A stretch of 48,397 nucleotides of DNA from Spirogloea muscicola. Taxonomy: Eukaryota; Streptophyta; Zygnematophyceae; Spirogloeales; Spirogloeaceae. Within the stretch, counting starts at the first letter, position 1. The number at the start of each line of letters is the position of its first letter. Below are positions 8,490 to 31,443 of the stretch, one piece after another. The stretch covers positions 36,824-85,220 of the forward strand of contig WELB01000103.1 in assembly GCA_009602725.1 (NCBI GenBank). The letters are read 5' to 3'. The notes below the pieces were generated by a model that saw only the letters and a list, made by a program, of their open reading frames with translations, did no database searches and was not told the DNA's origin. Made by a program: the position numbers and the translations under genes.

Positions 8490-9010
8490 GATACTAAGCA
8501 GCTACGAAGGAGTCTGTAGGAGTACTTCCTTGAAAGCAAGCGCGGCCCGAAAGCGTGCCACCCGGGGGGCTTGTGGAATTCTGTGACCACGGTGACGGGA
8601 GCATCAACCACGTGGTACTGCTGGTCGTGACACTTGGCAAGCTCCGAGCGCGCTTGCTGGGGCGGCTTACTCCCCTGCCTCGAGCGCCGTTGATGATGCA
8701 AAATAGGAATTTTTAGGGACGGTTTCGATGCGTGGCTGCCTCCGGCCACCTGAGCCGTCGATACCATGGCGTCGACGGCATAGATGCCGCCTTGACTTCG
8801 GCATTGACCCCGCTGCCCCCACGAGAACGGCCGAGCCCCGTCGGTGCCGGGACTCGTCGTCAGAACCAGACCCGCCGTCTGGGGGAGACGGGCGGCCGCT
8901 CGGTTGCCCCATCTAGGCGGTTCCCACCCACAAGCGCGGAGTACCCATCAGGAGCTACCATCTCGAGCTGGTGGCACGTAGTGCACTCCCACCATCTAGT
9001 GTGAGTCCAA
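8490..9010 (+). repeat. Unit-1 upstream GC-rich repeat with G-box
   Basis: A GC-rich block that recurs at 15490-15850 and 22960-23460, and more weakly at 13690-13880. Shared landmarks are a G-box palindrome ACCACGTGGT (8607-8616), GAGCGCCGTTGATG, and GAGCCGTCGATACCATGGCG. No reading frame is conserved between copies, so it looks non-coding. It marks the upstream edge of the first duplicated unit, 1.7 kb before the first NAC-like gene. Confidence 0.65.
8607..8616. promoter_or_regulatory. G-box palindrome (copy 1)
   Basis: ACCACGTGGT contains the CACGTG core recognised in plants by bZIP and bHLH factors. It is retained at the same place in three copies of the upstream repeat although the surrounding bases have drifted. 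A regulatory role is inference. Confidence 0.4.
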
Positions 9011-9108
9011 TCGTTCTGTCATACCCATCCCCCCTTCGGAAGAGCTTAGTTCTTGGTACCACCATCAGGAGCGCCCTTTGGAGCGGGACCTTCAGTTACT
9101 CTTCACAT

Positions 9109-9140
9109 CCCCCCCCCCCCCCCCCCCCCCCCCCCCCCCC
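9109..9140 (+). repeat. Poly-C tract, 32 nt
   Basis: Thirty-two consecutive C residues. The opposite strand is a G tract able to form G-quadruplexes. It lies in the upstream repeat of unit 1 and is absent from the equivalent positions of the other units. Its length may be inexact in the assembly. Confidence 0.95.
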
Positions 9141-9159
9141 ACGCCCTGGGAGTCTCCAG

Positions 9160-28903: not shown

Positions 28904-29024
28904 TGGGTGCTGTAGATGACCTGCTAAAGCTTCCCTTGTGAGAAGTGTAGTGCTGCGTGTGACTTGAAGGGTTAAGTCACTGATTGACTGATATCACTTT
29001 GTTGATTGGGTCTAATTTTGTATC

Positions 29025-29465
29025 ATGGCTTTGACCACTCAGCCTTCAGGTGACAGCTCATCAGCTGGTTGCAGCTACCAAATTTGGGCGATGGACATCC
29101 CCGCTGTTGTCAACACGAATTCTGGCAGTGACGTGTCGACGTCGCAACATCCCAACACCACAACCGGAGCCGTTGACGAGTTTGCCAACCTGCTTGGTAA
29201 TTATTCCGAACTGAGAAGTGGTTGTAACTCGGAGCCCCTTGGTCCAGATGGAGCTATGCAGGCAACCTTTCCACCTGCAGAAGCGGATGCAGGACGGGTC
29301 GATATGGCCCCCATCGGCACGGCTTCCCCCACCGCATGGCCAACGTGGCTGCAGGTCCCGCCCCTTTGGCCACCCAGCCCCCCGATGGCCCCTGCCCCTG
29401 CCCTCCCCAGTATGGACGAGGACTCCCCCCCCCCCCTCCCTAATTTAGGGCTTCGTTTCATGTAG
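29025..29465 (+). CDS. Hypothetical Pro-rich protein or distal exon of NAC-like copy 3
   Basis: A 146-residue open frame from a true ATG. The first half is Ser/Thr/Asn-rich. The second half is Pro/Met/Ala-rich with a Trp cluster (TAWPTWLQVPPLWPPSPP) and an acidic end (SMDEDSPPP). Such composition is common in transactivation regions, and it lies 120 bp after the end of NAC-like copy 3 on the same strand, so it may be a missed last exon. No domain was recognised. Confidence 0.35.
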   Translation: MALTTQPSGDSSSAGCSYQIWAMDIPAVVNTNSGSDVSTSQHPNTTTGAVDEFANLLGNYSELRSGCNSEPLGPDGAMQATFPPAEADAGRVDMAPIGTASPTAWPTWLQVPPLWPPSPPMAPAPALPSMDEDSPPPLPNLGLRFM

Positions 29466-31443
29466 CCACATTAATCTGCACTACTTTATCGGCCTGAACA
29501 ATGTATTGGCTTGAACTTGACCTCGCTTTCATTTCATGCGCACCGTGCGCCTCTCTGCAGATGATAGCTAATAAGAAGAGTTGAGCATTACCTACATAGT
29601 AAGCTCCTACTACTGGAGCTGCACATTTGTGTAGAGGCTGATGCCTTCATTGACGGACAGCATATCAGCAGCCGCTATAGACTTGAGCCGCTACAGGAGG
29701 CTGTTGCCAGATCAAAATTTTGCTAGTGATCTTAGTGTATGCAGCTTAAAACAGGTGGCCTTATCGTCCTACTATGTGGATTCCTGGCAAACTAAACTCC
29801 ATCTTGGCGTTTGCACCCACAATATCCCATTCCAGGTGACCTTCTGTGACTTTTGTAGAAGCTTCCTCTCTTTTCAGGACCGAAGGCGGCTGTGAATGGC
29901 CATCCCTTTAAGGTAAAAGCGTGTATTGAGCATGGAGGGCCTGATTGGCCAAGTATGAGGCAAGCCTATCAACAGATGTACATCACCTGCTGCTTAGACG
30001 ATCGGCCCTGTACTTGCTGACCACGAGTTAGCAGGTAAAGGTTGCTTACCCAATCACGCAGGGAAGACGGCAAAGTCCAAGCCCTTCTGCCGCCAACTAA
30101 AGCTCGTTCAGCCCTAAGGTGCAAAGCATGAGCCTGAGCTCACTGCAAAGAGGCTGACACACGGTGGTGCAAGAATGAAAGTATGCTGCTGGCAAGCCCA
30201 TCTTGGCTGGAAGCGCACCCTCATGTCGTGCATAATGTACATTAGCAATGTTTTCAGGTAGAGGCTGGAGGCTAGGAGCAGCTAAAGATGTCGACTGCAG
30301 CTGGTAGGAGGTTTTGAGGCGGTGGTAATCGAAGTAGTGATGCAATCTTCCTGCTCTGCACTACCGACTGCACTACCAGCAACGTAGGTCGTCTCCGCAC
30401 ACTTATACACCTCCATATCAACCGCATCTACCAGGCACGTGGTCCTCCGCCATTGTGCCATGACTTGAACCATTATCAGATTGTGCTTATGACTAAGGGA
30501 GCACACCTCAAGTTCTACTTGACCTGGGAGACTTGAAATTGATAGTACCCAGACACACTTGTCGCTGTACTTCCCGCAGCAACTCATGGCTGGGACTATC
30601 GATTAAGCTGAGCTTTTGGCTCCAAAAAAAACTCTTGTAGGTCAGATCACTGTCATACTGGCCAAGGGCTAAGCATCAATGATGTAGCAAGCTGCCTACT
30701 AGTGCAGGTACAATACTCTATATCTGACACTCAGGCTACAGCTGCTGCAAGATCAGCCACATAGGAGGCTGTCAAGAAGACATACAAGGAGGAACACAAT
30801 CTCATGATGGAAATATTAATAGTATGTAGCAGATACCAATTTCTTTGATGTGTGGCAGTCCTTGACAGAACATTTTACCTTAGAGATGTGTATCTTATTG
30901 GTGACTTTCTTCTGTGTCTTCTTTCTCAAGTGTGTCTTCTTCGAAGACTTGAGGATCTGTTTTGCTTTCATTGTCTTGCATGATCACACTGCCGAGCCAA
31001 AAGCTGTGTTTCTACGCTGTGCTTAATGGCCTCTAATTGATGCAGGAGTTGCCCATGCTTTGCATGTTTCCTTTCCCCAGATGTAGCCCCACTCGCGTCT
31101 TCTAAATTCCTAGCATTCCCCTACATTCATTGTAGATAGTGTCGTAGGTGCTATGTACTGATCCTCCCTGAATTAAGAATCAACGAACAATAGGAACCAG
31201 TCAATTTTGACAATCAACCCACTTTTGTTAGTCAGCAGTGGCCATAGAAGTAGGAGCACATGGTCACAAGTACTTGATCTTCTTATGCACCCTGCTTCTC
31301 TTCATCTTCATAGCAGCGCCCTGTGAATGCAGACAATATCATATGACGTTCTACAGTGTCGACTAAGAAGAAAGCCTCTTCCAAGTAGAGGGCGATGGCT
31401 ATTGTCGGCCAGCCCAGGCGGCCACTGGGTGCTCAATAACCGA
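29466..31443. other. Spacer with unit-3 3' remnants and a dispersed repeat
   Basis: 29610-29700 and 31080-31165 match sequence 3' of NAC-like copy 1. 29985-30190 is a diverged copy of a repeat also found at 37575-37790 (shared CCCTTCTGCCGCCAACTA and GGTGCAAAGCATG blocks). 31370-31430 is a minus-oriented LINE 3' hairpin touching the 3' end of the ceramide kinase gene. No other gene is supported. Confidence 0.5.

Follow-up and report, generated by a model that had tools for sequence, protein, structure and literature searches.

Zygnematophyte algae stand as sister group to the land plants, in which NAC proteins form one of the largest regulator families. Within the NAC domain the arginine of the GFRF motif has a role in a salt bridge. 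Among known structures, the NAC domains of ANAC019 and ORE1/ANAC092 (1ut4, 1ut7, 3swm, 7xlj and 7xp3) are the best-ranked folds for the exon 2 model of the genes described here, although no match is significant and the recognition motif differs. The available parts of the literature place recognition in the WKATGTD motif and dimerization in subdomain A of the NAC domain (PMC11121595), the latter also being given as the location of the dimer interface in PMC9635653; a zinc motif is reported to be present in WRKY and absent from NAC (PMC11121595). Wheat NAC subfamilies f–h resemble the present genes in possessing a NAC domain with lost conservation of subdomains C and D, but belong to another lineage, and the CxLCxH motif described below is not mentioned in the available part of that source (PMC9635653). 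For streptophyte algae, the accessible portions of two reports give three NAC genes in Klebsormidium flaccidum (PMC7147800) and raised regulator numbers in Spirogloea (PMC11712027).

The window, a stretch of 48,397 nucleotides from Spirogloea muscicola (positions 36824–85220 of contig WELB01000103.1, here C103), contains three NAC-like genes, G1, G2 and G3; no publication naming this cluster was found among titles and abstract openings. We consider it probable that the genes constitute an old tandem array encoding divergent NAC-domain proteins, putative NAC-derived regulators, and that its homeologous copies occupy three contigs in a triplicated genome. The array is real and well supported, but ordinary in kind; it is the lineage that is notable.

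NAC content of the Spirogloea genome

The assembly searched comprises 153 Mb in 471 contigs. An exon-by-exon search with the Pfam NAM profile (E up to 1e-3) returned 38 exon matches, one of which is below the cut-off, at no fewer than 31 separate loci, seven of them canonical as judged by reading. None of the 38 lies on C103 or on the two other contigs that carry the window family, C51 and C181. Searches with G1, G2 and G3 placed members of this family at ten loci (C103, three; C51, four; C181, three), all ten of which were missed by the exon-wise NAM search, indicating that such genes are easily overlooked. The statement in the first-pass annotation that NAC genes are few therefore does not hold for this genome, and the array belongs to a wide NAC expansion. 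A zygnematophyte genome in which about forty loci are NAC-like, and only seven canonical as read here, would show that NAC genes expanded independently in algae.

DNA was retrieved at seven of the 24 NAM-matching loci that are not canonical. Five divergent genes from this group (C264, C404, C348 and C21 twice) share with the window family a C-x3-H motif before the strand corresponding to canonical YFF, a Gly-x-Trp strand and NAM matches, but differ in lacking CxLCxH within the ∼0.8–1.2 kb stretches, outside which exon 3 may lie. A second divergent NAC-like family, with GRWKNTGG or GRWRDTGG strands, was observed on C21, C264, C348, C9, C456, C20 and C43; with a single query, exon matches at E up to 1e-3 numbered 23.

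Organization of the array

Self-comparison of the window revealed direct repeats in register, with spacings of ∼7.4 and ∼9.5 kb, that define three units on the plus strand. The gene models (ATG at 10321, 17744 and 27203, all on the same strand) are as follows.

10321..10513, plus strand: G1 exon 1, subdomain A/B region, ending in phase 1
10825..11135, plus strand: G1 exon 2, subdomain C–D region, with the GQWKGSGKTSV strand and VHEFSL
11392..11703, plus strand: G1 exon 3, subdomain E-like FVFWKFCLKK, CPLCDH motif and stop
17744..17933, plus strand: G2 exon 1, homeologues on C51 (97%) and C181 (84%)
18249..18583, plus strand: G2 exon 2, with the GIWKCSGSTPI strand and VHEYSF
18798..19019, plus strand: G2 exon 3, with DQTVLWRIWLK, CPLCDH, the C-terminus DMVRKPGQCG and stop
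27203..27392, plus strand: G3 exon 1 of an AG/GT-bordered gene model
27704..28029, plus strand: G3 exon 2, with the GEWHSSRITPI strand and VHEYYL
28328..28453, plus strand: G3 exon 3, with VLWRFSLAS and CSLCEH, GT directly after
28653..29465, plus strand: possible extra 3′ exons of G3, open frames with unsettled borders

All three models have AG/GT borders, with intron 1 in phase 1 and intron 2 in phase 0, while the proteins have diverged strongly, G2 and G3 being 48% and 41% identical to G1, respectively. The three same-orientation units, the conserved exon borders and the divergence of the products proposed in the first-pass annotation are thus borne out. A 5′ UTR intron, also proposed for each unit, is plausible but unconfirmed: its sole basis is an AG directly 5′ of the ATG in all three copies, and comparison of the 5′ regions disclosed no GT donor at one common position upstream of G1–G3.

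Relationship to the NAC domain

Spliced G1, G2 and G3 each have NAM as their top Pfam family, with 18.6 bits (E 2.7e-3, profile positions 5–109), 21.1 bits (E 4.5e-4) and 22.9 bits (E 1.3e-4), respectively, over a matched span of 2–109 of the 122 profile positions. All three scores are below the Pfam cut-off of 27 bits; the profile check thus matches NAM along the domain but falls short of a formal assignment. Taken alone, the second exons match more weakly (G1, E 0.091, profile 51–110; G2, E 0.0033; G3, E 0.0081) and the first exons gave no NAM match in the Pfam search. The paralogues C51_B (without exon 3) and C181_C score 28.1 and 26.0 bits, and C181_A scores 25.5 bits. NAM is matched by six of the seven aligned family members, the exception being C51_A, an intact homeologue 93% identical to G2, which did not match NAM even at E 10. 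C181_A and C51_A matched PF21080, a viral capping-enzyme domain, over residues 39–97 (E 0.0019 and 0.093); both matches are under the PF21080 cut-off and were taken as chance.

The alignments cover seven of the ten family loci (A4; C51_B lacks its exon 3 here, and the broken loci C51_C, C51_D and C181_B are excluded), four of the seven canonical loci (A5) and five of the 24 other NAM-matching loci (A6). In hhalign the family profile scored 40.8 (8e-6) with the genome's own canonical NACs and 72.9 (2.8e-11) with the other divergent NACs, which in turn scored 125 (5.5e-21) against the canonical group. The maxima from 200 column shuffles each were 19.0 (canonical) and 22.6 (divergent), and reversed profiles gave 9.3 and 14.5.

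The gene structures point the same way. The canonical NACs of the genome (C175, C16 and C38; C63, C33 twice and C201) share domain order with the window family, and at all seven loci intron 1 follows LP in phase 1, the same place and phase as in the family. At C175, C16 and C38 intron 2 is also shared, in phase 0 and directly before the exon 3 opening DAFVLCRVFKK, where G2 has DQTVLWRIWLK. Common descent is the simplest reading of two introns common to the family and canonical NACs. The window family differs from the canonical genes in having a longer segment ahead of the HEY strand, in the absence of WKATGKD and the GFRF arginine, and in the addition of CxLCxH, which is absent from C16 exon 3.

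Exon 2, as contiguous DNA, was the part modelled with AlphaFold, from an input alignment of three rows. The best model has a mean pLDDT of 57.1, with block means of 70–83 at residues 31–70 (the other four models, ∼35), and contains strands at 21–23, 29–34, 40–46 (KVGIWKC), 50–54, 57–69 and 97–104. When this low-confidence model was ranked against 350,542 PDB chains, NAC domains (ORE1 and ANAC019) occupied ranks 1–5, 7, 8, 11 and 13, with E 0.6–2.3 and TM up to 0.30, none of them significant; among the best 50 matches listed, E was at least 0.6 and TM below 0.4 throughout. Foldseek scores draw on sequence as well as structure. The comparison with ANAC019 suggested in the first-pass annotation puts NAC chains first in rank at no significant E value, and is weak evidence for the fold. 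A sequence profile search of the PDB listed ANAC019 fourth (E 0.57). Chains of Outer capsid protein VP4, Ptep2 and Mdm2 stood above it and were set aside as unrelated, weak listings; in a viral fold library the best E for the exon 2 model was 0.17.

Considered together, the NAM matches, the profile scores, the introns and the NAC-headed fold ranking uphold the NAC-like reading, and the predicted proteins of G1–G3 are homologous to NAC over the domain.

Recognition strand, dimer interface and Cys/His motifs

At the place of WKATGKD the family has WKGSGKTS (G1), WKCSGSTP (G2), WHSSRITP (G3), WSCTGSSK or WDSSGEVP; the canonical recognition motif is gone, although the Gly-x-Trp strand that carries it is retained. 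The GFRF arginine is replaced by Cys or Gly in all seven aligned copies. These sequences are best read as a NAC-derived family whose DNA contact has changed or been lost, its likeliest role being that of a putative regulator with changed DNA reading or of a modulator of canonical NACs. The proteins would be nuclear regulators that retain the NAC β-sheet and read DNA differently; alternatively, they may pair or compete with canonical NACs. If the genes do derive from NAC, an altered but real DNA-reading role appears somewhat better than even. The NAC-like loci of this alga would also provide naturally altered recognition strands and dimer interfaces with which NAC DNA reading could be tested.

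The most credible alternative, though a rather unlikely one, is that the NAC fold has been kept but sequence-specific DNA binding lost, such that the proteins serve only to pair or compete with canonical NACs. The replacement of WKATGKD (by KCSG, KGSG, HSSR, SCTG or DSSG) and of the GFRF arginine is what such proteins might display. Retention of the Gly-x-Trp strand, however, and the positive net charge of the first 180 residues argue against this alternative, and the change in subdomain A would be expected to weaken normal NAC pairing too.

Two Cys/His motifs recur in the family. CxLCxH, 3′ of subdomain E, has both Cys at all ten loci and the His at nine (Leu in the broken C181_B), and C-x3-H, early in exon 2, occurs at all ten; the two sit on separate exons. 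A metal site composed of both would be no more than a possibility, as C-x3-H is not restricted to the family, being found also in the canonical C175, C16 and C38 NACs and in the five aligned divergent NACs (it is absent in the C63 group). In an extended form of this idea, which we regard as doubtful, the two motifs would hold a metal that offsets the lost dimer contact, yielding a zinc-stabilized NAC-fold branch of single-domain proteins re-aimed at other DNA. Such a branch, if real, would connect NAC with its WRKY-GCM1 relatives, which bear zinc.

Homeologous clusters and history of the array

Homeologous copies of the array occur on C51 and C181, making three with that on C103, an arrangement that lay beyond the view of the first-pass annotation, whose local three-copy array nevertheless stands. 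The cluster on C51 (reverse strand) is collinear with, though rearranged relative to, the window (81–88% identity over 15.1–22.4 kb and 84% over 31.4–36.6 kb), and that on C181 is 85% identical over 16.1–20.6 kb; C181_C lies apart from the latter, at 295 kb on the other strand. The available part of a published account describes a whole genome triplication in Spirogloea muscicola (PMC11547041), with which the three clusters agree. In the tree, G2 groups with C51_A and C181_A (100/99), and a second clade unites C51_B, C51_C and C181_B (100/99), whereas G1, G3, C181_C and C51_D have no supported placement. The two supported cross-contig clades imply that at least two members are older than the split of C103, C51 and C181. 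On C51 the upstream block of unit 1 directly borders the region of unit 2, which suggests that this contig has no G1 gene. The array may evolve by birth and death of copies.

The domain exons are open, with AG/GT borders, at six loci, and the C-terminus and stop of G2 are identical in C51_A and C181_A. The remaining four loci are broken: exon 3 of C51_B is interrupted by a stop, exon 2 of C51_D changes frame, C51_C has stops and no exon 1 that could be found, and exon 1 of C181_B contains stops.

Selection on the family is purifying but relaxed. Among the tandem copies dN/dS is 0.39 (bootstrap interval 0.25–0.56), 0.61 (0.41–0.91) and 0.55 (0.36–0.80), values that are rough because dS is near 1. 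The G2 homeologues (dS 0.08–0.15) give 0.42, 0.43 and 0.43 (0.20–0.95, 0.25–0.76 and 0.24–0.79), and pairs with C51_B, which is broken in exon 3, give 0.62–0.95; the broken C51_C, C51_D and C181_B are left out of these counts. In contrast to the ∼0.4 of the G2 trio, dN/dS in canonical homeologues is 0.02–0.06 (three loci, 141 codons) and 0.12–0.32 (four loci, 108 codons). Their dS (0.04–0.23) overlaps that of the G2 trio, as expected from one triplication.

The apparent diversification noted in the first-pass annotation is not borne out as positive selection: all the tandem-copy intervals lie below 1, and comparison of aligned pairs by region identified none convincingly above 1. Values exceeding 1, from small counts, were obtained for the recognition strand between G2 and G3 (9.0 and 2.0 changes), for CxLC between G1 and G3, and for exon 3 between C51_A and C181_A; no other cell exceeds 1. 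Positive selection on the recognition strand is not supported: for most pairs its pN/pS is close to the value for the remainder of exon 2, and the counts are small.

That all copies are decaying relics, en route to pseudogenes and encoding no functional protein, is consistent with the four broken loci and with dN/dS above that of canonical homeologues. This explanation is nonetheless quite improbable given the six loci with open, correctly bordered domain exons, the constraint on the G2 trio, and a G2 C-terminus and stop that are alike in three homeologues. Least credible of all, and very improbable, is chance resemblance of an unrelated β-rich protein to NAC, for which sub-threshold NAM scores of G1–G3, C51_A without a NAM match, the weak PF21080 matches and the low-confidence exon 2 model might be cited, but against which stand hhalign scores above all shuffle controls, two introns in equal phases and a fold ranking headed by NAC chains.

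Upstream blocks and intervening sequence

Each unit is preceded by a block of ∼250 bases that contains the palindrome ACCACGTGGT, and unit 3 also carries a copied segment.

8548..8798, plus strand: upstream block of unit 1, palindrome ACCACGTGGT at 8607; 75% identical to 15510–15758 and 74% to 22979–23232
15510..15758, plus strand: upstream block of unit 2, palindrome ACCACGTGGT at 15568
22979..23232, plus strand: upstream block of unit 3, palindrome ACCACGTGGT at 23036
23883..25229, plus strand: copy of 20179–21407 within unit 3, 79–88% by segment, with repeat families D2, D7, D14, D15, D18 and D20

The palindrome lies ∼1.7, ∼2.2 and ∼4.2 kb upstream of the ATG in units 1, 2 and 3, respectively. 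CACGTG occurs 18 times in the window against 8.8 expected, a count reached by none of 100 first-order Markov sequences. Part of the unit 3 block recurs at 86% identity on contig C336 (3067–3240, within a stretch of 6 kb), and on this contig searches of the genome with G1, G2 and G3 found no match to the NAC-like family. As the palindrome resides within a duplicated block, a relative of which occurs on this contig lacking family hits, its role as a G-box is unproved; of the upstream G-box repeat that had been proposed, the repeat is confirmed in all three blocks and the function is not. The flanks described as collinear are so only in part: unit 3 is broken up by the copy at 23.88–25.23 kb.

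Eight frames from the flanks and insert, including that at 22158–22376, had no Pfam match at 0.01. The latter open frame, gag-like by eye, falls within an inverted repeat at 21602–22793 that looks like a folded-back retroelement fragment and has matching sequence on C51. Downstream, positions 31444–36580 form a flank 84% identical to C51 in a single stretch, where three reverse-strand frames had no Pfam match at 0.01. The window additionally contains a C run of ∼30 bases at 9112–9142 and a long (CT)n microsatellite at 14576–14760 with one N near 14695.
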